DNA of 22,425 bases from a virus. Shown piece by piece: positions 1,096 to 22,425 of the stretch. A program made the position numbers and the translations under genes. The stretch's first letter is position 1. The number at the start of each line of letters is the position of its first letter. The stretch lies in IMG/VR virus record IMGVR_UViG_3300014495_000250, positions 1 through 22,425 of that record. The stretch is one strand, 5' to 3'. The notes under the pieces were generated by a model. The model worked only from the letters and a program-made list of their open reading frames with translations. It searched no databases and had not been told where the DNA came from.

Positions 1096-1536
1096 TCACT
1101 TACCGTTGCGCCTTAGTGCAGAGCAATATGGTGTCCAGGCATCGTCGCGAATCCAGCCCAGCTGTTCCAGCCTTCGGCCAAAGCGTTTGGCGATGCGCGG
1201 TGGCAACCAGGCGTGGGCGTCATCTAGACCTCGCGCTAGCAAATCTCGTTTCGCAGCCTCGTGTAACTCGAGCATACGCGCGTAACGCTCGCGCGGATTT
1301 CCTGCCCCCACTGATGGGACAACAGTGCAATTTTCAGTGTCGTTTTGAACTCCGCCGGCAGCGGCGGGCGCGGCCTCGCGCCCGCCGCGTTCAAGCAGAA
1401 AATACATTTCGCAGGTTAGACGCGCCAACGACGCCATTACTACGCGCCCCGCGTCATCCTCTATAACCACCTTTGAAACGAAAATTGGATCGTGAATGTC
1501 CGGAAACGGGTAGTCGAATCCTTGTCGCGCATGCAT
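1096..1536 (-). CDS. GNAT-like acetyltransferase-fold phage protein, annotated start lost
   Basis: The open frame from ATG at 1536 gives 146 residues, but the frame is open upstream. The 16 codons from 1584 to 1537 encode VKIRPYQECDFQALLG, which looks like the first strand and helix of a GNAT fold. The rest fits too: FVSKVVIEDDAGRVVMASLA resembles strands 2-4, and the C-terminal RRLEQLGWIRDDAWTPY resembles the last GNAT helix and strands. A Gly/Ala-rich insert occupies roughly residues 51-80. Codon 1584-1582 is GTT where a GTG start would be expected, eight bases after the upstream stop. ATG 1536 has no ribosome site. Position before a gp14-like gene suggests T7 gp13, the internal virion protein with a GNAT-like fold. 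Enzyme activity is not implied. Confidence 0.65.
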   Translation of the reverse strand: MHARQGFDYPFPDIHDPIFVSKVVIEDDAGRVVMASLARLTCEMYFLLERGGREAAPAAAGGVQNDTENCTVVPSVGAGNPRERYARMLELHEAAKRDLLARGLDDAHAWLPPRIAKRFGRRLEQLGWIRDDAWTPYCSALRRNGK

Positions 1537-1591
1537 GCCAAGGAGAGCCTGGAAGTCGCATTCTTGGTAGGGCCGTATTTTAACGAGCCGC

Positions 1592-2044
1592 TCAGAAAAT
1601 TCTATGCTGCAGCAAAGGATGCACCCGGGCTATCGCTTCAGCTGCTTCGAAGGTGGTCGCTCCGGGCGCCACGCCATGCTTTGCCAACGCATTTTGCGCG
1701 AGAACTGAAATCGATCGTTGCGCGAGAGGGTGCGGCAGCAACTCAAAATCAGGGTTATCCTGAAGCATCAGGTGAGCGCCCTCGTCTGCCTCCACTAGGG
1801 CGATAATCACCGTCGTGTCATCGATCACCGCAAAATCACTGTCGGGGCGCGCGCCACACATCGTGCTTTCCCGCACTTCAAGCGAAGCTCCGTCGGATTC
1901 AATCCTCGTCGAAATGACGGCGTTGTCTACCGCGGGCGAAGATAGCGCGCCGGGGTGAAGTGCCAGCCAATGAGAATTCGTCAATCTGGCGGCGTGTCGC
2001 TGCCAAGCGCCGAACGTTGTTAAGTAATACGCTTTTCCAGTCAT
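1592..2044 (-). CDS. Phage structural-region protein, unknown function
   Basis: This encodes 150 residues from ATG at 2044. A TTG at 2071 in the same frame would add nine residues. A weak GAG lies about nine bases before the ATG, which is why I prefer it. The protein starts MTGKAYYLTTFGAWQRHAARL and ends with an acidic and then hydrophobic region (EADEGAHLMLQDNPDFELLPHPL) and a helical tail ending HPLLQHRIF. No catalytic motif, signal peptide or membrane segment is visible. It sits 42 bases after the Hint-domain fibre gene and just before the GNAT-like gene, so it is probably co-transcribed and virion-related. I do not recognise the family. Confidence 0.65.
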   Translation of the reverse strand: MTGKAYYLTTFGAWQRHAARLTNSHWLALHPGALSSPAVDNAVISTRIESDGASLEVRESTMCGARPDSDFAVIDDTTVIIALVEADEGAHLMLQDNPDFELLPHPLAQRSISVLAQNALAKHGVAPGATTFEAAEAIARVHPLLQHRIF

Positions 2045-2086
2045 AAAATTTCGCTCGAGACGGCTTACCAATGTTTCGAAGAGTGG

Positions 2087-3103
2087 CTAAGAGCTAAACG
2101 TATAATTGTGCGTCAGGATGGACGCCGCGTGGCGCCCGGCGAAGAATTGATGGGTCGGCTCGCAACCCACCGTTACTTTCTGCGACTCTTCTAGGACCGC
2201 TTCAATCTTTCGTATCGTCACGCGACCAAAACGTCCAACCAAAATGTCCGACAAGCATAAGCGCTCCGCGCGCATTGGCGAACCGTCCGCGAGCGTAAAA
2301 ATATGGTGCGGCGTCACGTCCAGCGATTCCTCGTTTGAGAAATGCAGCCGGATGAAAGTGTCCGCGTGACGCGCTTCCAAACGCACGATGCGCGTCCACG
2401 CTTCGGGCCTAGCCGCGCCAGGACAGCGCAAGTGCTCGCCGGCCTTGCAAGATTCGATGGCGACAGTTCCGCGCTCCTGCGTCAACACCATAGTTCCACT
2501 TCGCAAACAACTCCCGCTGCCACTGCCGGATCCCCCGCCGGTACCGGACGTCGTAGTGGCCGCGATCATCGCTCCTTGGGACAACGGGATGCGCCCTTGC
2601 AAAGCTTGCTGCTGTGCCGCGACGTTCATCTTCGAAGTAAATCCGTTCGCGGGACTTCCAGCGCTGCCCGCAAGTCCACCCACCCACGTAAGTGCCAGCG
2701 CGGAATCATCCCAGTATGGATAGAAATAATAGCTAGTGCCCGCGGTCAATCCGGTCACAGGAAGCGATCCATTTGCCACTGCCGTACTCGTTCCATCCGC
2801 GCGCGCTATCGTAAGCGATGACCATGTCCAAGTAATCGTCGTGGTCGTCGAAACGTACGTGAATGCTCCCGACCAGGTTGGAGGCACCGAGCCTTTCATC
2901 AAAACGCCCGGTTTAGTTGGATCAATACTCCCAGCGGTAATCGCGGCCGTCGCTACGCGCGCATAATTCGCACCATCGGTTATCTGATCATCGAGGCTCC
3001 ATCCCTGGTTCGGTCCCAAAGCAGCCCTGGCGATGCGCTGCAGTGCCTCATACAGTTGCGGATTGGTGCGGCGCAGCGCTTCAATTTGTGGAACGTTCAG
3101 CAT
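2087..3103 (-). CDS. Fibre-like phage protein with C-terminal Hint (bacterial intein-like) domain
   Basis: This encodes 338 residues from ATG at 3103, with AAGGGG about eight bases upstream. Residues 1-60 are helical (NPQLYEALQRIARAALGPNQ), and 75-135 are Thr/Ser-rich beta structure resembling a fibronectin-like fold (LPVTGLTAGTSYYFYPYWD). A Gly/Ser linker at 186-198 leads into a Hint domain at 199-333. C199 begins block A (CLRSGTMVLT), T264-P-H-H267 is the TxxH of block B (LDVTPHHIFTL), and it closes with H332-N333 (ILTHN). No homing endonuclease fits in the 135 residues. Only YTFSS follows N333, and +1 is Tyr rather than Cys, Ser or Thr. That matches A-type bacterial intein-like domains, which cleave and sometimes splice. 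Catalytic activity is inferred from the residues, not shown. Confidence 0.85.
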   Translation of the reverse strand: MLNVPQIEALRRTNPQLYEALQRIARAALGPNQGWSLDDQITDGANYARVATAAITAGSIDPTKPGVLMKGSVPPTWSGAFTYVSTTTTITWTWSSLTIARADGTSTAVANGSLPVTGLTAGTSYYFYPYWDDSALALTWVGGLAGSAGSPANGFTSKMNVAAQQQALQGRIPLSQGAMIAATTTSGTGGGSGSGSGSCLRSGTMVLTQERGTVAIESCKAGEHLRCPGAARPEAWTRIVRLEARHADTFIRLHFSNEESLDVTPHHIFTLADGSPMRAERLCLSDILVGRFGRVTIRKIEAVLEESQKVTVGCEPTHQFFAGRHAASILTHNYTFSS

Positions 3104-3196
3104 GCGACCCCTTTTTCGGTCAATAGCTGCACGACGGTAAAGACTGAATTTGCCGAACCGCTCCGTCTCTCCTCAAAACTAGGGGAACACGGCGCG

Positions 3197-3337
3197 TCAG
3201 TTCATCCCACGCACAACCGCAAAAGGATCCGGTTTGGCCCACGGGACAAGTTTAGTCACCGCAAACCACGCGCCTGGCGCATTGGTTCCGATCCGATACG
3301 AAACCCGTTCTGCCAGCACGTTTGTGAATTGCTCCAT
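3197..3337 (-). pseudogene. Probable C-terminal piece of the tail-nozzle-like protein, separated by an amber codon
   Basis: ATG at 3337 opens 46 codons to a TGA. The peptide (MEQFTNVLAERVSYRIGTNA, then GAWFAVTKLVPW and PDPFAVVRGMN) looks like real protein. It lies in the same frame as the 734-residue gene upstream: after that gene's TAG at 3365-3367 the frame continues TLNAPASRD and then this peptide. No ribosome site precedes the ATG. Endings of the type 'GAWF...DPxxxVRG' are what I recall at the C terminus of short-tailed phage nozzle-like proteins. The best reading is one protein of about 790 residues interrupted by a nonsense codon. Alternatives are a separate small gene or amber readthrough. 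TAG also ends the terminase and scaffold genes, which argues against a recoded genetic code. Confidence 0.5.
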
Positions 3338-3364
3338 ATCGCGCGACGCAGGCGCGTTAAGCGT

Positions 3365-5569
3365 CTAGGCTCCCAGCGCATTCAGCGTGACGCCTCCAGG
3401 CGAAATCGCCGAAAGCGCGAGTGATCCAGCGCCTTGTACGTATCCCGTTAGGTAGGCGAATAAATTTCTTCCGCTCAAGCCGGTAGCGGCAAGAAATGCC
3501 GTGGAATAAAAAGAATTAATGGCTACGCCGTCGTCAGAATATTGCCCTTCGACTGGCGAATAGATTTTTCCGCTCAAATTGTTTGAGCCCAAAAATATCT
3601 GGGCAATACCGTTCGCGCGTTCGATCAACCCACATGAATTCGCCGCGATGATCCAAGGCGCCCATTTGCGTCCACGCTCCGGCGTCGTAAGTACCGCAAC
3701 CAACGGATCCTGAAATCCCTCGGTGTAGTCCAGCACCAATATTGTTGCCGTGCCCATTGGCACGCCCACAAGAATTCGTTTGTGCTGAGCATCGACCTGC
3801 ACCCACAAATTCTGTCCGTACTGCCAGTTGATTGCGTCCCAGGTCGGCTGAATCTTCTGCGACAGCTTCACAGGTTCGCTGCCATCGAAATAATAAAGCC
3901 CCGACCGCCCGGCGATCACAGCCCACTCTTCGCCGACTCCCACGCCGTGCGCCGAAGGCGTTCCCACCTTGTTCGAGATTTCCTCCACCTGCCATAACGC
4001 TGGTTCATTCACGCCGTCCGTCGCAGTCACGTACATGGAACGTTCTTTCACAAGATACAGATTATTTCGTAGCGCAAAAGCGGACCGAATTCCCTGCCCA
4101 TTATTCTCCGCAATGCTCTGGATTCCGGTCACTCCATCGTAGCTCTCGGGCGATTCCGTGGATGATGCACGCACCAGCGACGCATTTTGCGCGGCATTTG
4201 TTGGGAACACCTCAATATTGTCTACAAGAAAAGATTCGCCACTAGGCCCGGGAAGTCCGTCGGCATAGACACGCAACGTCAAATCCGTCGGCAGTGAGGT
4301 CTGCGGAGTGAATAGATCCGCAGTGAATTCGACATAGCTCGTGGCAGCCTGTGCGGCTGTGACGGCAATTCCCTGCCCCACTTGCCCCATAGTCGGGCTG
4401 AAGGCGTTGACGCGCAATGTGCCAGCGCTCAAATTTGCGCTTCGTGGCACGCGAGCCCGCACCGAATAATCCGTGTTGTTGACCAACAGTGGATTTCCCG
4501 AAGCGTCAGCGATGGCATTCTGTGATATGTATCCGCGTTCGACGTTTACCCCATCGGCGGTAATCCGAAACGCATCGCCCCACACTACATTGTTGGGCTC
4601 GCGACTCGCCCCTGCCCCGAACGTTGGATCGAGTGTCCAACCGAGCGGCCGGCCATCGCCCGAAGCATCCCATCCTCCATCGAACGAGGGGTTGCGCCAA
4701 TTATCCATCTTGGCGCGTTCACCCCACCAAAAAAGCCGTTCCACATAAGCCGCCACGCCCACTTGATTCGGTAGCTCAATCAAGCTGAACAGATAATCCA
4801 TGCTGACGCCGCTGAGCAAAATCGTGTCGGTAAAATCCACCTCCAGCGATGCGGCGGTGTTGTCATTAATCGTCATCGTCGCAGGCACTTGATAGAATGT
4901 AGTTCCGCCGCTTCCAGTAAAAGCAAGCAGGCGCCGCACCACATTCGAAGGTCCAGTCGGAATATTCGTAACATTCACCTTCTTACCGCCAGCTGCAGTC
5001 CACGACACGGGCGGTGAGGGCGCTGTCCAATAACCTTGCCGGGTAACAAAAATCACCGAACATTGATGAACGCCCGGCGAAATATTTCCGGGATCAGTTG
5101 CGTCGGCCAGCACGGGCCCCTCAGCCGGGCCGATCTGGCTCACTCGGTCCAAGTACACATCATCGAATTGCCGCGGCATGTCCTGCCCAATTAATCCGTC
5201 GGAAAGTGCGATGTATTCACGACCGAATTGCGTTGTCGAAGACATGAACAGGTTCTGAACCACGCCCGAGGACACGAGCGACAACACACCAGGTGAACTT
5301 TCCTTATAAATGTTTCCGAGTGAGTCCAGCGCCAGGAGCCGCTGTACTAAATTCGTCGTTGCGTATGTTTTCACACCATTGATCTGCGGCGTCCCAGCGA
5401 AAACGGGAAATTGCGCGGCCAATCCAGCGCGGGTTCTCACCCCACCCGGAAAGAATTCCACATCACCAAGTCCAGGAGACATTCCGGCCGGGACGTCTGA
5501 AGGATCGAGCAAAGTCACCCAGGTGCCAAATACGTTCAGCGCCAATGGCGAAAATGATTCAATGGACAT
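3365..5569 (-). CDS. Large tail protein, T7 gp12 / P22 gp10-like nozzle candidate
   Basis: This encodes 734 residues from ATG at 5569, which lacks a clear ribosome site. The N terminus (DVEFFPGGVRTRAGLAAQFP) has the 'deduce a genome-wide profile, correct for given parameters' look of phage tail nozzle proteins. The body is repetitive beta structure: short hydrophobic strands with FYQVPATMTINDN, WGERAKMDNWRNP and LYLVKERSMYVTATDG, suggesting a beta-propeller or platform barrel. There is no signal peptide or membrane segment. With the in-frame piece at 3197-3337 the product would be about 790 residues, close to T7 gp12 (794). It lies downstream of an adaptor-like gene and upstream of fibre and core-like genes, as in T7. 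Nozzle identity is an inference from size, order and style. Confidence 0.6.
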   Translation of the reverse strand: MSIESFSPLALNVFGTWVTLLDPSDVPAGMSPGLGDVEFFPGGVRTRAGLAAQFPVFAGTPQINGVKTYATTNLVQRLLALDSLGNIYKESSPGVLSLVSSGVVQNLFMSSTTQFGREYIALSDGLIGQDMPRQFDDVYLDRVSQIGPAEGPVLADATDPGNISPGVHQCSVIFVTRQGYWTAPSPPVSWTAAGGKKVNVTNIPTGPSNVVRRLLAFTGSGGTTFYQVPATMTINDNTAASLEVDFTDTILLSGVSMDYLFSLIELPNQVGVAAYVERLFWWGERAKMDNWRNPSFDGGWDASGDGRPLGWTLDPTFGAGASREPNNVVWGDAFRITADGVNVERGYISQNAIADASGNPLLVNNTDYSVRARVPRSANLSAGTLRVNAFSPTMGQVGQGIAVTAAQAATSYVEFTADLFTPQTSLPTDLTLRVYADGLPGPSGESFLVDNIEVFPTNAAQNASLVRASSTESPESYDGVTGIQSIAENNGQGIRSAFALRNNLYLVKERSMYVTATDGVNEPALWQVEEISNKVGTPSAHGVGVGEEWAVIAGRSGLYYFDGSEPVKLSQKIQPTWDAINWQYGQNLWVQVDAQHKRILVGVPMGTATILVLDYTEGFQDPLVAVLTTPERGRKWAPWIIAANSCGLIERANGIAQIFLGSNNLSGKIYSPVEGQYSDDGVAINSFYSTAFLAATGLSGRNLFAYLTGYVQGAGSLALSAISPGGVTLNALGA

Positions 5570-6109: not shown

Positions 6110-6191
6110 GTTCGATTCTTGACGCAACCCGAATGCCTGCAGTTGAATCCTAAGCGTCGATGTTCACTTCACTTTGAAACAGAAGACAATT

Positions 6192-6198
6192 GGGGGAG
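6192..6198 (+). promoter_or_regulatory. Purine-rich ribosome site supporting GTG start at 6203
   Basis: GGGGGAG ends four bases before GTG at 6203, a slightly short but usable spacing. The TTG at 6119 has no comparable site. Confidence 0.45.
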
Positions 6199-6202
6199 CT
6201 TG

Positions 6203-8506
6203 GTGCGGCAACTGAGAATTCTCTGTGTGTTAACGATTATCGCCTTTGCAGCGCTGGCACTGTATGTCGCGTTGCAGACTCCGTCCTCGCGAGCGCAAAG
6301 CTCAAGCCTGATCGCCGCTATTCAGGCAAATGAATCTGAGCCTGTTGCTGTTCCACGTTTAGTGGCTGCAGCATCCGCAAACGGTACTTCGCCCGCAGTC
6401 GTTGCCTCTAACATTGGTATTCGAACTCTCGCGGTTAGTTCAAAAGATGACAACGCTTCCACATTGCCTGACGCGTCAGCAACGACTGAGCTTTACCTGA
6501 CAGCCATCGACCGGCCGGATCGCATTTTCTCCTTTGCCTTTCGCAACAGTCCCGCGCTCCTTTCCGCGACCGTCGGCAAGATTCTTGCCGTGCCTTTCGT
6601 CGGCACAGGCGCCATTGGTTCCGTCGGCGATGGCGGCGCTGCCCCTAGATCCGAACTCGATCTGAGTCAGAATCAATTCACCATGCGCAGCGGCGTGGCA
6701 GTTGCCCCAGACGGAACTTTCTTTATCGCTGACACCGGTAACGCTACCATTCGCGAAGTGGCGGGACCTGCTTCCAGCGAACCAGGAATTATTCGAAGCA
6801 TCGCCGGAAGGTGGGCGCCACGACAAAACGTGGAACTTGCCGAACCCATGGGCATCGCGCTCGATCGCGCCCAAAATCTCTATATCGCTGATCGCGGAAT
6901 GAATGCGATTTTGGTGCTGTACGGCTCGGCGTCACCGAAAGCAGGCGAGCTTGCGATTCTCGCGCATATGGTGTCGCCTGCCAGCGTCGGCGTCAGTCCC
7001 GATGGCACCACCCTCTTTGCATCGTCGGCAGATTCCGGAGCCGTGGTTGTCATCAATACGCAAACCCATGCATTGCGCTCTGTTGCTGGAGCTGCGGACT
7101 CTCTATTCGCTTCTGCGCTTCAACATTTGGAGGGCTCTCGAAATATCCCGGCGGGCCTGGCGGTCGACGGAGGCGGAAATTTATTCATCGCCTATAGCAG
7201 CCCCCGTGCTTCCTACGACCAGATCCTGCGGCTCGATGCCCTTTCGTCTCATTGGACCGTAGCGGCGCGCGGCTTGAGTGGTCCCGGCGACATTTCATTC
7301 GACCGCCAAGGTGACCTATTCGTCGCCAATCAGGGGACCCGCCAAGTACTAGAATTCAAAGGTATGGGTGATCCCGCCACCGGCGTCACGCTCACACCTC
7401 CAGCCCCGTGCGCCAGTGGGACTACTACATTCTGCGATCAGCTGATCGGCGGGACCAGTTCGCCTCTCCCATTTGAGCTCAGCAACAACACAGCCAGCGC
7501 GATCACAGGCATCACACCAAGTTTCACGGGCGGTAAGACACCAGATTTCACAATCGCAAGTTCTTCGTGCGCCTCGTCGCTCGCTGCTGGTGCGAGCTGC
7601 GCTCTCAATATCGCCTTCGTGCCCACCGCTAATGCGACTAGCTCCTGCGGTGCTGGTTTTGCTCCGAATAGTCGCTGCTCAACGGTGTCGGTGGATTACA
7701 ACGGCGCCACTGCGCCAGTAACCGCGTCGGTCAGCGGAATTGCTGACGATTTCCAAGTCACCTGCATGTCTACATCGATGTTTACGTGCCCGCCGCTGTC
7801 GAACGGGGCCCCGTATCAAATCACAATCGCACAAGGCGCCTATGGCACATTTCAGCTGCAGATTGTTCCAGACCACACCTTCAGCGGAGTAGTGACACTG
7901 ACGTGTCCCACAGGCTTGCCCGTCGCTCCGGCCGGAACAATTGGAAGCCCAACCACCTGCGGCATCTCGGCTGGTACCTCAGTGACGGAACCGCTAGTGA
8001 ATACACTCGCGCTCAATGTCACCCCGGGTACCGCCGTTCCTTTTAACGTCACATTCCAAACCACCACAACAGCTGGAACTCAAACTTTGCCCCCGACGAC
8101 TACATCGACATCAACGAGTGAGCGTCAACGCGCTGCGTTATTTTCAGGAGCTTATAATGGTGGCCGAGGCGGTCCGTGGCTTCACAGCCTGCGCACTTCA
8201 ATCGCAGCTCATCAGGTCGACCGTACGGGTGTGCTCGAGTCGTTAAAGATCCCAACCCTTCTGCTAGCAGCGCTTGTGCTCGTGATGCTTCCGCTGTTTC
8301 ATCCAAGAAACTCGCGTCCCTTGGGCGGTTTAGCACCGGTATTCGTGCTTGCTTCATTCGGGGCGCTACTCGCTGGATGCCATCACAGCTCCACCAAAGC
8401 CAAACCCGTAATACCGTACACGCCAATGGGAACCTACACGTTAACAGTGCAGGGTTCCGCCCAGAACGCATCGCGGGGATTTACGGTTACCCTGGTAGTG
8501 GACTAG
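6203..8506 (+). CDS. Exported NHL beta-propeller protein with Ig-like domain and C-terminal membrane segments
   Basis: The frame is open from TTG at 6119 (795 residues). I prefer GTG at 6203, which puts a signal peptide at the N terminus (RILCVLTIIAFAALALYVAL, cleavage near SSRAQS). Five NHL-type blades follow at about 192-215, 244-268, 288-312, 345-372 and 389-414 of the long form, with motifs such as GTFFIADTGNATIREV and NLYIADRGMNAILVLYG. Residues 425-545 resemble the ASPM-SPD-2-hydin-type 'choice-of-anchor' fold with paired Cys. A second beta region, two hydrophobic segments (711-727, 737-753) and a closing GTYTLTV strand domain follow. This layout is common in acidobacterial surface proteins. 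It probably sits in the envelope, but its ligand is unknown. It runs against the phage operon and overlaps the 3' end of the adaptor gene by 20 bases. Confidence 0.8.
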   Translation: MRQLRILCVLTIIAFAALALYVALQTPSSRAQSSSLIAAIQANESEPVAVPRLVAAASANGTSPAVVASNIGIRTLAVSSKDDNASTLPDASATTELYLTAIDRPDRIFSFAFRNSPALLSATVGKILAVPFVGTGAIGSVGDGGAAPRSELDLSQNQFTMRSGVAVAPDGTFFIADTGNATIREVAGPASSEPGIIRSIAGRWAPRQNVELAEPMGIALDRAQNLYIADRGMNAILVLYGSASPKAGELAILAHMVSPASVGVSPDGTTLFASSADSGAVVVINTQTHALRSVAGAADSLFASALQHLEGSRNIPAGLAVDGGGNLFIAYSSPRASYDQILRLDALSSHWTVAARGLSGPGDISFDRQGDLFVANQGTRQVLEFKGMGDPATGVTLTPPAPCASGTTTFCDQLIGGTSSPLPFELSNNTASAITGITPSFTGGKTPDFTIASSSCASSLAAGASCALNIAFVPTANATSSCGAGFAPNSRCSTVSVDYNGATAPVTASVSGIADDFQVTCMSTSMFTCPPLSNGAPYQITIAQGAYGTFQLQIVPDHTFSGVVTLTCPTGLPVAPAGTIGSPTTCGISAGTSVTEPLVNTLALNVTPGTAVPFNVTFQTTTTAGTQTLPPTTTSTSTSERQRAALFSGAYNGGRGGPWLHSLRTSIAAHQVDRTGVLESLKIPTLLLAALVLVMLPLFHPRNSRPLGGLAPVFVLASFGALLAGCHHSSTKAKPVIPYTPMGTYTLTVQGSAQNASRGFTVTLVVD

Positions 8507-10138: not shown

Positions 10139-13100
10139 CTAATTCGGATTCCCAACGCAGATGTACATAATCGTGTCGGTGCCGCTCGACTGCGTCAGAG
10201 TCAGAGTAGTCGCCGTCGTCTGTACCCGCACCGTCGCGATCGCGGAAGTATCGTTGGCGGTGCAAACCGGCGCCGAACTATAGGCGGTTGGAAATGTCAC
10301 GGCAGCCGCTCCTCCCACAAGCGCGACGGTGCCCGCAAAATTGGCCGCCCCTGCCTGATTCAAATGCTGCGACACACTTAGCGAACCATACACAACGGGG
10401 TTTTGGGAATCGTGTAATGGAGCAAGTCTTAAATCAGGCGTCACCGGACCTTGCGACAGGATCACGTCGTCAAAATAAACGTAGTTCCCCGCCGCTGCGG
10501 TATTTTCCAACAGAAACACCCGCATCGAATGGGCGACGGTAGTACTTAGCGAATATCCATTCGGCACGCGAAAAATCAATCCATAATTCCTCGTTGGTGT
10601 CCAGGCATTGGCAGTGCTCACCTGCCAGTCCGCTCCTGTCACGTTGCATCCGCAAGTAATCCCGTTGTTGTAGGTCATCGACGCATTTGTCGACTGCCAA
10701 TTCCCCGTCGCCGCGGAATGCCCATCGTAATTTATCGGAGCGAGCACCCTCGCATTGGTCGCTACGCTCGAGATCACATCTGCGGAAGTGCAGTTTGAGT
10801 CCCAATAAAAACGCAAGCCTGGCCGGAAGTTATTCGATGTCGACCCAGATGCCACGCGCATCATCAGCGTGTACTCCTTGGTCGCATCCACTTGAATGCA
10901 ACCGGAGTCAATGCCCAGCCCGGCGGTGGCACCGTCACCGACGCGCACATTGTAATTCCCCTGTGTATAGGCATCTACCGCCGGCGTGGCGCTGGACGAC
11001 GTATTCTGCAGATAAATCCCGCTGCCAGGCTGATTGATCGTTCCACCCGCCGCTACTCCCCCCCAGTAATAGAGTGAAGTTGTGTTTTGCCAACCTTCAA
11101 AGCTGCCGTTGCCTAGCAAATTGTCGCCGGCAAGATCGTTCATGCCGTAATGCATTGAAGGCGTCCAGTTATGCCCATTGTTATCCATCGCGACCATTGC
11201 CGTGGCCGGCTCGTTCGGCTTCACCTGGGTATTGTTCGTAATCGAAAGATAAGGATCAAGCACGTGAATGCCATCCGATGATCCATCGCTGGGAAATTGA
11301 TAACAGTTGTACACGTTCTCGCAACGATTATTCGGCCCAAACGTAATCGATGTAGCCCCGACGATGTTGAAACAAATCTGATTGAACGCTTGGGATGAAG
11401 TTTCGCAATCGTTGCCATACACTTCGTCATTGTTGGGATAATTGCCGCCTGAATCTTTCGCGAATGTGTATCCCGTCGAAGCCGCGGGCGGCAGCACGCA
11501 GGCATTCTGTTCCAACACCACGGCGTTGTACGTCCCCGTCAAAGAAAAACAAGCGTCGCCCGAACTCTCCGGCTGGAAATTGTTATGTTTGAATATCGTA
11601 TTCGACCCGTCGAACCCGCCGACCGACGAACTCCCGTAGACCCCGAATGAATTGCCGCCGGTACCGAGCTGTAGGTTATTGTTCTCAATATCTGAATGCC
11701 CGATTGCCGTCATGTCGATTACTTTTGAACTCGCTCCGTTGGCTTGAAGATACATCCCGAAGATATGAACGTAATTGATTTTGGATACCGTCGGATTCGG
11801 CTTTTTCACTACGGTGCATCCCGCTATCCCGCAACCGATATACCCAGAAGGGTCGGGCGCTGCGACGGTTCCCAGCCCACTCTCCTGATAGCCGACGAGT
11901 GATGCGCCGTCACCCGTCAATTCGATCGCATCCGTCGTCGCTGTATCTGAAATCACCAGCTGCGCTTGCCCCCACTCCAAGGTAGTGCCGGCGGGAATCG
12001 TTATATGGTGTGTCGCAGTCAGTGCTCCGAATAAACCGCGCGCATCACATACGCTAGACGATGCGGCGGCAGCTGCTAAACACGCGTTTATTTGCGCGCC
12101 CGCGTCCGACCCCGCAAATCTCTCGGCTTTTTGGACACTGTTCAAAGAGTTGACTGCGGCCGTGCCGTTCACGTCCAAATTGTATTGCGGATTTGTAGTA
12201 TTGACGCCCAACGATGTGGGTGTGAAACGATGCACGCTTCCCAGGGCCGTAGACAACCTTAACGCTCCGTTGCCTGTAGGAATTGAGGTCATTAATGTAC
12301 TATTCGTCGATGCGCCGGTTACAAACAGAGCTCCATACTGCTGCGGACTCCAATAGGCGGTGCCCACCATGCTGGGCGTCGTAGTCAGGCTCACGCAGTA
12401 GCCTACAATTGCACTTGTTCCTGCTGCGGGCAGGGTCCATGCGACAGTTAAAGCGTTGTTAGGTCCCCCAAGTACCACCCCAGCGCTCTGGATCGACTCC
12501 ACAGATTGATGTGTGCAATTATCCGACGTCGAGCTCACCGTTGAGTAGTAGGTTCCCGCTGCAAGTGCGCCTCCCGTCGTTGCTGTGCCGACAACGTTGA
12601 TAGGCGGATACAGCGGTGCAAACTCCACATCGATCGTCCCCGTGCTGTTTTCCGCAAATGATGCGCCGAAACCAAACATACTTCCGGTGCTGAACATATA
12701 GCCCAGAGCCGGATCGATCGCCACAGTTGCGAACCGGCTGCCTGCTGCAGTCGCACGAAAGGCGGGACCGGTGTCGTCGCCGAGTGGAAATAGATCGCTA
12801 CGCAATCGATCCGAATTGCTCGTAGTGACGATGAAATCCAGGCCATTGGAAGTCTGGGAGGAGCATCCACCAACGGGCATTCCGTTCGCATCCACAACCC
12901 ACGTTGAGGCCTGCGGTCCTCCATAAACCTGGCATTGTGTGAGCGTTCCCGCGTCCATCCTCACCGCGGGCCCCTGCCCAGCGTTGCCGGCGAAACTGTT
13001 GACAATATAAACTCCTTGGAGAATGGAACCTGAAGAGTTGAACTCCATCAGCGCGTTCGTCGGTGTAGTCGCGTCGGAAGTCGTCACATTGTCGAATGTA

Positions 13101-14551
13101 ATTTCGGACATCGACGGCATAGCAGTTCCGCCCGGATTGCCGGTGGCATTGGTAACCGTGAAAAAACTCGTCGCCGGGGATTCAATGGCCGACATATTTC
13201 GGAACACGAAGTTCCCTGGTCCGCTTCCCAGCGTATTTACCCGTTGTATGTACTGAAAACCACCACCGGTCCCTTGAACGTTGGTGAAATAAGCCAATCC
13301 CGCCAAAGGCGCTTCGCCGCTGAGCGGCGTCTCGCCCGTAAAGATTGCGATCGATTGGGATCCAGAACCTGCCTGTAAACATCCTCCATCCATAAAAAAC
13401 CAGAAGGTATTCGTAATTTTTAAGGGCGTATTGTCGGTCTTACCCGTTACGTTTGTGGTTAAACATACGTTATGCAGCACATTTTCAAGCGAGTCATAAA
13501 TATTCATGGCCTGGTTTTGCCCATTGATCGTCAAATTTTCGAACGTGTCCGTAGAGCTGCTGGGATATGTCATAGAGAACACGGCTGCGCCGTTAGGATT
13601 CGCGCCGCTGTTGGCGATCAAACGAACCTGCGGCACACGATTGAACTGCGCGCCGCTCTCCGCGCTCCCGGTACCATTTCCGCCTATAAAATGTAGGGCA
13701 CCGCACGGCAGCGGGAATATCGCCGCCGTCGACGGCAATTGCGGCTGCGACAGTTTATAAATGCCAGGCGGAAAGAAAATGCTACCCCCCGCAGTGTTAT
13801 TACTATAGCCGTTGCACACGAACGTTATTGCGGCTTGGATAGCCGCAGTATCATCCGTCACGTTGTCTCCCTTTGCGCCAAATGCAGTCACGTCCACACG
13901 TGGCCTGGGTCCCGTCACCGTTTCGTTCCCCAGCACGCTCAGCGTTGACGGCGAAAATATCCCAGGATTGAAGCTGGTGGTGGTCAACGTTCCAGCTATC
14001 GACGCGTTCCCTGCCACGCTCAGATTTCCACCCAGTGTCAAACCAAACGCAGAAATGTTATTTCCAGCGCCTGACGAAGAAACGTCGGCTGGCAAAATCA
14101 CATCGGGATATGTAATCGTTCCCGGGATTTGGGGCCCGGTAATCTGCAGCAGGTAACGGCCAGCGGGCGCATAAAAGTGATAGTTGCCAATGCCGTCAGC
14201 CTGGAAAGGGTTCGAAGATGTCACCGTCAGCGTTGCATCGGTATATACCGTCGCAAGAGGGCTGCATGGCGTCCCGGTTGCTGTTGTCTGGCACACCGTT
14301 ATGGTCGCGCCCGAAATTGGGTGACCCGAAGGTCCAAAAACTATATCGTCCCGTCTCGATCCCTGTGCATTTGTCGGTAGCGCCGCCGGCAGCATCAAAG
14401 CGCACAGGAAAATAAAAAGCGCCAAGGCTTTGAGAGCCGTAATCTTTGCGGATAATTTATTATGCGCCTCCGCAACGCTAAAACGCACACACTTACGCGC
14501 AGAAGTCATTCCCACCGCCACCGTGTGATTTTTTTCACGCAAAAGTCGCAT
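10139..14551 (-). CDS. Giant beta-helix (pectate-lyase-like) fibre or surface protein with signal peptide
   Basis: This encodes 1470 residues from ATG at 14551. An ATG at residue 15 is an alternative, and neither has a clear ribosome site. A signal-peptide-like hydrophobic run lies at 38-58 (LKALALFIFLCALMLPAAL) with a likely cleavage after PTNAQ. Residues 68-153 form an N-terminal beta domain. A pectate lyase 3/GH28-like right-handed beta-helix begins near 219 with the typical VTAFGAKGDNVTDDTAAIQAA. A second helix-like region begins near 810 (GSDAGAQINACLAAAA). A jelly-roll carbohydrate-binding-like segment starts near 1145 (NLLGNGSFEGW), and a Cys-containing tip ends MYICVGNPN. Beta-helices of this kind bind or cut host polysaccharide in phage tailspikes. 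A secretory signal is unusual for a virion fibre, so it may instead be a cell-surface protein. No lyase active site was assigned. Confidence 0.8.
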   Translation of the reverse strand: MRLLREKNHTVAVGMTSARKCVRFSVAEAHNKLSAKITALKALALFIFLCALMLPAALPTNAQGSRRDDIVFGPSGHPISGATITVCQTTATGTPCSPLATVYTDATLTVTSSNPFQADGIGNYHFYAPAGRYLLQITGPQIPGTITYPDVILPADVSSSGAGNNISAFGLTLGGNLSVAGNASIAGTLTTTSFNPGIFSPSTLSVLGNETVTGPRPRVDVTAFGAKGDNVTDDTAAIQAAITFVCNGYSNNTAGGSIFFPPGIYKLSQPQLPSTAAIFPLPCGALHFIGGNGTGSAESGAQFNRVPQVRLIANSGANPNGAAVFSMTYPSSSTDTFENLTINGQNQAMNIYDSLENVLHNVCLTTNVTGKTDNTPLKITNTFWFFMDGGCLQAGSGSQSIAIFTGETPLSGEAPLAGLAYFTNVQGTGGGFQYIQRVNTLGSGPGNFVFRNMSAIESPATSFFTVTNATGNPGGTAMPSMSEITFDNVTTSDATTPTNALMEFNSSGSILQGVYIVNSFAGNAGQGPAVRMDAGTLTQCQVYGGPQASTWVVDANGMPVGGCSSQTSNGLDFIVTTSNSDRLRSDLFPLGDDTGPAFRATAAGSRFATVAIDPALGYMFSTGSMFGFGASFAENSTGTIDVEFAPLYPPINVVGTATTGGALAAGTYYSTVSSTSDNCTHQSVESIQSAGVVLGGPNNALTVAWTLPAAGTSAIVGYCVSLTTTPSMVGTAYWSPQQYGALFVTGASTNSTLMTSIPTGNGALRLSTALGSVHRFTPTSLGVNTTNPQYNLDVNGTAAVNSLNSVQKAERFAGSDAGAQINACLAAAAASSSVCDARGLFGALTATHHITIPAGTTLEWGQAQLVISDTATTDAIELTGDGASLVGYQESGLGTVAAPDPSGYIGCGIAGCTVVKKPNPTVSKINYVHIFGMYLQANGASSKVIDMTAIGHSDIENNNLQLGTGGNSFGVYGSSSVGGFDGSNTIFKHNNFQPESSGDACFSLTGTYNAVVLEQNACVLPPAASTGYTFAKDSGGNYPNNDEVYGNDCETSSQAFNQICFNIVGATSITFGPNNRCENVYNCYQFPSDGSSDGIHVLDPYLSITNNTQVKPNEPATAMVAMDNNGHNWTPSMHYGMNDLAGDNLLGNGSFEGWQNTTSLYYWGGVAAGGTINQPGSGIYLQNTSSSATPAVDAYTQGNYNVRVGDGATAGLGIDSGCIQVDATKEYTLMMRVASGSTSNNFRPGLRFYWDSNCTSADVISSVATNARVLAPINYDGHSAATGNWQSTNASMTYNNGITCGCNVTGADWQVSTANAWTPTRNYGLIFRVPNGYSLSTTVAHSMRVFLLENTAAAGNYVYFDDVILSQGPVTPDLRLAPLHDSQNPVVYGSLSVSQHLNQAGAANFAGTVALVGGAAAVTFPTAYSSAPVCTANDTSAIATVRVQTTATTLTLTQSSGTDTIMYICVGNPN

Positions 14552-16865: not shown

Positions 16866-17750
16866 ATGGTCTCCGTCCATTCCATTGAGGCTCTAGTGAG
16901 TTCGCCAACAAACTCCGACGACTCAAAAGCAACCCCCGCGATATCCACAGGAACCGACAGGCGTCGGCGCAAGCGCGCCAAGATCGCAGCCCAGGTCCAC
17001 GTTCGCGGCGTGAACGCGCCGGAGCCCTTCGAAGAAGTTTGCAAAAGCATTGACGTGTCGCGTCACGGCCTCTTATTCACCGCCGCTCGCGCCGGTTATT
17101 GGAAAGGCCAGCGCCTCGAAGTAACTTTTCCCTATTCCACCGCGCCAGCGGCCTTCGATTCCGGACAACAAGCGGAAATCGTCCGCATCTTGGAGCGAAA
17201 CGGTACTTACGCGATCGCGGTGCAATTTCTTAACTCGAAATACAATCCGGCCACCGCTGTCGGCACCGACCGATTTGGCTCTGCCACCCAATTCGCGCCC
17301 AGCGCCAGCCGTGCTTCACCACAAGTCATAGTCCTGACGGTTGATTCCGACGTTGCCACATCGGACCTTGCACACCAAACGCTTTCGAAAGACGGCTACA
17401 CGGTAGTCTCTGTTTCCAGCGCCCGCCAAGCCCTCGATTTTCTGCGCACTGCGGTGCCCGCCGTTGTAATTGCGGACATCGGGGGAAACGACATACCCGG
17501 CCAGGATCTCTGTGTCATCATTAAACGCGACGAGCGTCTGCAGCGTGTGCCGGTGATTTTGTTAACGCGCTCCGACGAATCCGCCGATCAAGCCGCGTCC
17601 CAGCAGCTCGGCGCAATGGCTTGCATTGCTAAACCATTCAACCCTGGGCGTCTATCGCAGGTGGTCCGGCTCGTCGCTCCGCCACCCGGGAAACGAAGCG
17701 TATACGGCGCTTCACGCTATTTCAGCAGCAGCATTGAGCGCGCACTTTAG
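16866..17750 (+). CDS. PilZ domain fused to a response-regulator receiver domain
   Basis: This encodes 294 residues from ATG at 16866, with only a weak GAG upstream. Residues 31-125 are a PilZ domain with the c-di-GMP-binding RxxxR inside DRRRRKR (32-37) and the DxSxxG motif at D63-V-S-R-H-G68. Residues 153-270 are a receiver domain: acidic pocket D160/D162, predicted phosphoacceptor D204 in VVIADIGG, T234 and K256 (IAKPF) are all present. The protein could join c-di-GMP sensing to phosphorelay input. PilZ proteins commonly act on pili, motility or exopolysaccharide, but no output domain or partner kinase is visible. It lies between portal and scaffold, opposite to both, and ends seven bases from the portal stop. 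It looks like a host gene carried by the prophage. Confidence 0.85.
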   Translation: MVSVHSIEALVSSPTNSDDSKATPAISTGTDRRRRKRAKIAAQVHVRGVNAPEPFEEVCKSIDVSRHGLLFTAARAGYWKGQRLEVTFPYSTAPAAFDSGQQAEIVRILERNGTYAIAVQFLNSKYNPATAVGTDRFGSATQFAPSASRASPQVIVLTVDSDVATSDLAHQTLSKDGYTVVSVSSARQALDFLRTAVPAVVIADIGGNDIPGQDLCVIIKRDERLQRVPVILLTRSDESADQAASQQLGAMACIAKPFNPGRLSQVVRLVAPPPGKRSVYGASRYFSSSIERAL

Positions 17751-21444: not shown

Positions 21445-22425
21445 CTATCTTCGCCTCCGTAAAAACGACACCGGCAGCATTCGCTTCTCTTCTTCAAGCT
21501 GTGCTTTACGCGCCTGAATCGCGCGAACGGTGGGATCCAGCGACGTAATTCGCTGCGCTAACCGCTGCTCCAAGGGCTCCCTTACGAATCCGCTGCGCTG
21601 CGCCGAATAGCGCGATTTCAATCCATACCGCGCAGCGTCAGCTGAATCGTCGCCGTCCATTTTTTCCACATCTTCAATCCGCGCAGTATCTCGAACCAAA
21701 GTCGGCAATGTCCGAATCAATTCAATGCAGCTGTCCGTCAGAAGCCACTCGCCGGCATCCAGCATTTGATACATCAGCATCCAACCGCCGATCCTATCGT
21801 CGTCCGCGGGAATCGGGCGCGGAAAGCCAGCGGCCGCAAAAACATCGCCCATCTGTTCCGCAATCGATGCCTCATCAGTCCGTCGCGCGAATGCATCCGG
21901 AGAAAGATAAATCGCATCAATGTTTTCTGTCGCGGAACAATTGACGCCACGCCGCTCCCCAGTGGCACGTCCCACACTGCGCGCGATGATTTCACGCGCT
22001 AATTCTCGAGGAGTAGTGCGATGAGTCACATACTCGCGGTAGGTAATGACTCGCGTCGCCGCTTTGGCCGCGGCGCGCTCAGCCTGTCGTTCCAAAGGCG
22101 TCTGCGCGTGCCAATAACTAGCCGCAGGATGCTCGAATCCCCAATCGATCGAAATCCACCGCGGCCACCACGCCCGCCATTCCAGGCTCTCCGCACGCGC
22201 TATGTGCCGTCCAACATCAAACTTGTCAAAATACTGCCCGGCGAAAACATCCCAGTCGCCGTCCAGAAAAGCGCGCTTCAGGTGCGTCGGTAGCGCTTCA
22301 AGCGTTTTTTTATAATTCTCATCGACCGCATAAATCGGATTATCTCCCAGCCGTGCCGCAATAAAATCATAATCCGCTGCATCGTATTGCTCGGGACGCT
22401 CCATACCTGGTGCCGGCTTCTTGTC
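21445..22425 (-). CDS. Phage terminase large subunit, C-terminal nuclease part (5' end outside window)
   Basis: The frame is open to the window edge, so this is the C-terminal part. Counted from the internal Met at 22404 it is 319 residues. The enzyme packages DNA: an N-terminal ATPase, not in this window, pumps, and a C-terminal RNase-H-like nuclease cuts. The nuclease is recognisable from ISIDWGFEHPAAS with D87 as first metal-binding acid, a middle YLSPDAF (D170) and a late DDSADAARYGL (D252/D253, D256). The linker LKRAFLDGDWDVFAGQYFDKF is the usual link between motor and nuclease. The C-terminal tail is basic (FLRRRR), ending TAG at 21445. It heads the operon whose next members are the small head proteins and the portal. 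Confidence 0.9.
   Translation of the reverse strand, partial: DKKPAPGMERPEQYDAADYDFIAARLGDNPIYAVDENYKKTLEALPTHLKRAFLDGDWDVFAGQYFDKFDVGRHIARAESLEWRAWWPRWISIDWGFEHPAASYWHAQTPLERQAERAAAKAATRVITYREYVTHRTTPRELAREIIARSVGRATGERRGVNCSATENIDAIYLSPDAFARRTDEASIAEQMGDVFAAAGFPRPIPADDDRIGGWMLMYQMLDAGEWLLTDSCIELIRTLPTLVRDTARIEDVEKMDGDDSADAARYGLKSRYSAQRSGFVREPLEQRLAQRITSLDPTVRAIQARKAQLEEEKRMLPVSFLRRRR

Follow-up and report, generated by a model that had tools for sequence, protein, structure and literature searches.

Why should a phage fibre-like protein carry a Hint domain at its very end, with just five residues left before the stop codon? We address this question for a window that is an entire IMG/VR record, a phage contig of 22,425 bases, in which such a domain forms the last 140 residues of a 338-aa protein (stop codon at 2089-2087; Table 1). 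The fibre-like host protein has no match to a Pfam or PHROG family. A sequence-only reading of the locus had picked out C199, T264-H267 and H332-N333, followed by Y334TFSS338, all of which are exact against the coordinates of the open reading frame. That reading had also proposed an A-type bacterial intein-like (BIL) Hint domain with a non-nucleophilic +1 residue at the fibre C terminus, and the proposal is supported by the profile matches, the confidently predicted Hint fold and the conserved catalytic residues described below.

Because homologues of the fibre-Hint gene lie in Acidobacteriota MAGs, the contig most likely belongs to a soil phage with Acidobacteriota hosts. The order of the fibre-Hint gene and the 149-aa gene downstream of it is kept in most homologous loci, making the latter a possible companion, and its similarity to the genes that come after the Hints of two tail proteins from other phages (L006 and L054) is no more than weak. 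The plus strand carries a host-like signalling gene for a PilZ and response-regulator protein (16866-17750), opposite to the late genes, and, among the virion genes, one for a 795-aa NHL-repeat (beta-propeller) protein (6119-8506). Promoter and terminator scans of positions 1500-3700 of the window gave nothing above chance level.

Table 1. Coordinates of the fibre-Hint gene, its parts and other genes of the window.
Feature	Position	Strand	Basis or remark
Fibre-like protein with C-terminal Hint domain, 338 aa	2087..3103	-	ORF and homologues
Beta-sandwich module, residues 59-150	2654..2929	-	common to phage tail-tip proteins
Gly/Ser-rich linker, residues 186-198, module-swap junction	2510..2548	-	near-invariant in 18 homologues
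Hint domain, residues 199-333, A-type BIL-like	2105..2509	-	AF2, Foldseek, profile
Cys199, position 1 nucleophile, block A CLRSGTMVLT	2507..2509	-	18/18 family, 31/31 phage tail Hints
Block B Thr264-Pro-His-His267 (TxxH)	2303..2314	-	18/18 homologues
Block F His318	2150..2152	-	17/18; Ala in L004
Block G His332-Asn333	2105..2110	-	18/18 family, 31/31 phage tail Hints
C-terminal tail Tyr334-Thr-Phe-Ser-Ser338 after HN	2090..2104	-	Y, F and last S 18/18
Possible companion gene, 149 aa, M(T/N)GKxYYxTT...HPLLRHRVF	1592..2041	-	role suggested by position only
Virion structural protein	3365-5569	-	fibre-Hint gene 3103..2087 comes next
Pectate-lyase-like protein, probably tailspike	10142-14551	-	
Terminase large subunit	21445-22425	-	PHROG E 1.1e-11

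Identity of the C-terminal domain

Searched as a single sequence, the domain gives weak evidence: the Pfam Vint family is matched at E 0.02-0.1, under the cut-off, and phmmer finds the Clostridium thermocellum A-type BIL structure 2lwy at E 0.005. A profile of 18 homologues recovers 2lwy at E 2.2e-4, with almost the whole domain aligned and HN placed on HN, and a profile of 31 phage Hint sequences reaches it at 1.1e-16, together with many inteins. AF2 run on the whole protein with 8 rows left the Hint part at a pLDDT under 30, with no usable model, so we turned to a 31-row alignment of the Hint domain, which yields a mean pLDDT of 86.8 and a pTM of 0.79 (116 of 155 residues at 90 or above). 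That alignment takes in distant Hints, to the benefit of the prediction; independent support comes from the match made by the profile of the family alone. Foldseek places 2lwy first for this model (E 2.8e-10, TM 0.77/0.85), then Tetrahymena BIL2, inteins and Hedgehog (1at0, 6tyy). Profile matches, modelled fold and the invariance of the catalytic residues in homologues thus confirm, at the level of sequence and prediction, a real C-terminal Hint domain and no chance pattern.

The features of an A-type BIL are all present: a Hint fold, Cys at position 1, a TxxH in block B, a terminal His-Asn and, at +1, Tyr334; a homing endonuclease is absent, the 135-residue domain having an all-beta model, and the host protein is no conserved enzyme. 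By profile and fold, 2lwy is the nearest solved structure, sharing the endonuclease-free fold, Cys1, TxxH, His-Asn and the lack of a +1 nucleophile. The window Hint differs from it in closing off a phage fibre-like protein at its C-terminal end, behind a Gly/Ser linker and before a conserved five-residue tail, and in having Thr at block F position 4; its activity is a prediction.

Other classes of Hint protein fit less well. We rejected a class 1 intein because the +1 residue is Tyr, not Cys, Ser or Thr, and the domain is five residues from the stop rather than internal; the phage class 1 inteins of terminase and ribonucleotide reductase, which have the same Hint fold and motifs and appeared in the same scans (L012, and within L038-L049), are internal with Ser or Thr at +1, whereas the fibre Hint is terminal with Tyr. 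The conserved Cys314 does not make the domain a class 3 intein, since alignment with 2lwy puts it at F:7 and not at F:4 (Thr311), and Cys1 is present. Membership of Vint (PF14623) was likewise rejected at 15.2 bits against a Pfam cut-off of 27; some relatives of the same architecture reach that cut-off (27.4 bits for the isolated L006 domain, 39.1 for L022), while the window domain stays below it and has no VWA domain. The Hog domain of Hedgehog has the same fold, the same C-terminal position and a thioester at Cys1, and requires only the first acyl shift, after which cholesterol is added (PMC7664689); the window protein, in contrast, has no sterol-recognition region, keeps HN and a tail, and stops five residues past HN.

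Conservation within the family

Homologues were found in five other IMG/VR contigs, at 73-75% identity, and at fourteen loci of Acidobacteriota MAGs, with one copy of the gene per genome in the eleven genomes searched. We aligned 18 full-length sequences, the window protein and 17 others from IMG/VR and the MAGs. The Hint is present in every full-length homologue, and C199, TPHH, C283, C314, HN, Tyr334, Phe336 and Ser338 are invariant in all 18, so that C199, H267, H332 and N333, the residues on which the sequence-only reading had staked its case, are kept throughout. A search for a close Hint-less allele, in empty or spliced form, found none, and only distant relatives with another module. 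Synonymous differences among the 18 are near saturation (pS about 0.65-0.85), and pN/pS comes to 0.265 across the Hint, with values of 0.133 near block B and 0.125 in the final five residues; by these sequence measures the Hint family is under purifying selection.

The YTFSS codons vary among homologues, which shows that the constraint acts on the protein and rules out an RNA- or DNA-level cause for the conservation of the tail. That conservation is high and not exceptional: of all five-residue windows in the protein, 16% are conserved to the same degree. No member of the family has Cys, Ser or Thr at +1. Some departures from the usual catalytic set count against self-removal of the domain: F:4, usually an Asp, is Thr311 in the window family, the block F His is missing in homologue L004, and the block B His is missing in the related Hint L045.

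Three MAG copies depart from the common layout. In L032:3842-4705 the stalk between two GGSG stretches is lost, and the sandwich meets the Hint directly at GGSGSC. In L034 and L037 the reading frames are broken inside the Hint, indicating decayed prophages or assembly errors.

Hint domains in other phage tail proteins

We scanned for a Gly-rich linker joined to block A and for a block F/G motif with no linker requirement; both scans build on known motifs and do not amount to a census. Hints in phage tail or fibre-like proteins occur in three placements: C-terminal, N-terminal and internal. The C-terminal group, with 4-6 residues after HN in every complete phage tail Hint found there, comprises the window family, L006/L007, L054/L044, L014/L100, L022, L039, L042/L050/L051, L045, L052, L053/L103 and L055, and the residues past HN read YTFSS, FKSN, LNKF, VFKN, LKEV, VKIV, NKIGP, SKMV, LKVK or VKPEPI. 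L006/L007 and L054/L044 are tail proteins, with a Phage-tail_3 domain in L006 and L054; for L022, L039, L042, L045, L052 and L103 the tail role is read from Gly-rich beta-repeat make-up and phage context rather than from a named family. N-terminal Hints follow a short Gly-rich lead in J-like tail-tip proteins (L011, L019 and L020/L023), of which L011 is a central tail fibre J (PHROG E 2.6e-250), and a Gly-rich stretch in L021. The internal case is L016:4266-9884, a 1873-aa homologue of the virion structural protein that neighbours the fibre-Hint gene in the window, in which the Hint occupies a Gly-rich loop near residue 250 and HN is followed by ILKAS. Across these tail Hints the +1 residue is Tyr, Phe, Leu, Val, Asn, Ala, Lys, Gly or Ile, with Ser in one family. 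The block F/G scan also matched eight ribonucleotide-reductase-type inteins, named by their flanking sequence, all internal and with Thr at +1; the Hint sequence of L056 runs off its contig.

For cultured phages, tblastn against 50,697 phage records was run with the window protein, with the Hints of L006 and L022 and with the upstream modules. No homologue among tail proteins emerged, the matches being to enzyme inteins or one unannotated record, or none at all; for the N-terminal Hint of L011 the phage records gave helicase inteins and, from Ruminococcus phages, proteins without a name. BFVD contains structure matches among uncultured-phage proteins, which bear automatically assigned names ('Hint' or 'Fibronectin type III', for example). 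Literature searches, largely of freely available papers, turned up no account of Hint domains in the tail proteins of phages, which is no proof of absence. The kind of domain is known; for its repeated recruitment as a terminal tail-tip or fibre module with a conserved short C-terminal flank we met no earlier description.

The beta-sandwich that precedes the linker in the window protein (AF2 strands at 76-141, core pLDDT about 70-79) is 44% identical to that of L006, 49% to L054 and 48% to L100, yet the Hints behind these sandwiches are about 20% identical. A tree that holds the Hints behind the shared module in one clade is rejected (AU p 0.002), and one that unites the window Hints with the J Hints of the N-terminal placement is not (AU p 0.37); branches in the Hint tree are long, leaving its detail unsure. 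In the Hint-less relatives L088-L090 the sandwich and the Gly-rich linker recur and lead into a different fibre module. From the rejected single clade and the alternative module in these relatives, sequence comparison identifies the linker as a module-swap junction at which Hints from at least two lineages have been placed.

Predicted chemistry and possible uses

From its fold and residues, the domain is expected to follow A-type BIL chemistry, with a thioester at C199 and Asn cyclisation at N333. After translation, Cys199 would attack the Ser198-Cys199 bond to form the thioester, and Asn333 would cyclise and cut the Asn333-Tyr334 bond. Water could then resolve the thioester, giving plain N-terminal cleavage, or the freed amino group of YTFSS could attack it and so ligate YTFSS to the fibre. 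Both ways would remove the Hint and leave a fibre ending at a flexible Gly/Ser linker, with or without a conserved five-residue tag, and this self-removal would constitute a maturation step. Transesterification is impossible with a +1 Tyr, which is no nucleophile, and since the +1 residue is never Cys, Ser or Thr in the window family, its sequences exclude canonical splicing there. A-type BILs form the thioester N-terminally and cyclise Asn C-terminally, mostly with cleavage (PMC4031507; PMC7664689; PMC7765530), and can join the freed C-terminal flank to the N-terminal thioester through aminolysis (PMC4031507). As a Magnetospirillum BIL, also with Tyr at +1, needed that Tyr replaced by Cys before it would splice (PMC4031507), ligation may be poor in the fibre Hint.

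The five-residue tail has a pLDDT of about 55 in the AF2 model, with no confident fold, so packing offers no obvious reason for its conservation. An HN pair acts only when a residue comes after it. Ligation to the fibre end would explain a conserved YTFSS, as would a tail that positions the C-terminal bond. The sequence-only reading had held that splicing to five residues makes no obvious sense; we depart from it here, given that Y, F and S at +1, +3 and +5 are kept in 18 of 18 sequences, that pN/pS is so low in the tail, and that BILs are capable of aminolysis. A fibre joined to YTFSS after Hint removal would be a sensible product, the tail being conserved though the model gives it no confident fold. 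The protein is probably self-processing. That the Hint removes itself, by cleavage or by ligation, we judge likelier than any rival reading, with about an even chance of being right.

As an attachment device, the Hint would instead pass the fibre C terminus from Cys199 to a nucleophile on another tail subunit or the host surface, in the manner of Hedgehog, whose N-terminal domain goes to cholesterol, or of covalently binding thioester adhesins; thioester-based covalent binding by a bacterial surface protein is a precedent (PMC4450167). The Hint does occupy the place of the distal fibre module of Hint-less relatives, a flexible Gly linker precedes the Cys, and Hints lie at the termini of tail-tip proteins in several phages. 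Attachment nevertheless seems unlikely to us, for Hedgehog-type transfer needs neither HN nor a C-terminal tail and both are conserved, an acceptor-binding domain after the Hint was not seen, water and the freed tail would compete for the thioester, and no paper was found on Hint attachment in phage tails. The same position in place of a distal module would suit an uncleaved Hint kept as a fixed structural or binding module, as would the loss of one assisting His in each of L004 and L045; such a module, however, has little reason to keep C199, TxxH and HN invariant in 18 of 18 sequences, which makes this the reading we would least expect.

Self-removal could also be of no use to the phage at all, the Hint being a selfish or passenger element made harmless by it in a recombining terminal position. 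In keeping with this, Hints lie close to the ends of chains, where one flank is short, or inside a Gly-rich loop, two Hint lineages share one junction, and Gly linkers look recombination-prone, to judge from the stalk lost in L032. We consider this improbable, as there is no homing endonuclease and no +1 nucleophile for clean splicing, the Hint is fixed in the full-length homologues with no close Hint-less allele found, and the tail residues are conserved. A C-terminal chaperone for folding or trimerisation, cleaving itself away once the fibre is assembled, would account for terminal placement on fibre and tail-tip proteins and for the conserved processing site. This reading, drawn by analogy with S74 domains, seems quite improbable: we know of no record of Hint domains as chaperones, a conserved tail past HN is not required, and N-terminal and internal Hints misfit a last-to-fold role. 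The S74 domains of tail fibres and spikes do act in this way and, like the Hint, are self-cleaving domains on tail-fibre proteins, but S74 is an unrelated Ser-Lys autopeptidase and was not detected in the window protein (PMC7824862).

The retained catalytic residues, and the presence of this kind of domain at the same place in unrelated phage tail proteins, point to an undescribed self-processing step in building or using phage tails. In a broader and tentative form, which we hold to be possible though doubtful, phage tails would use the Hint thioester as a device: the fibre tip would be passed covalently to a partner in the tail or to the envelope of the host, or would gain a short conserved peptide through nucleophile-free ligation, and different Hint lineages would have been recruited to one place for this. 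BIL domains have lacked a clear biological role, and their recurrent, conserved placement on tail-tip and fibre proteins of phages provides a testable setting. Should infectivity depend on the processing, tail fibres would have a route of maturation that involves neither S74 nor host proteases, and protein ligation or attachment would have a natural example that dispenses with a +1 nucleophile.
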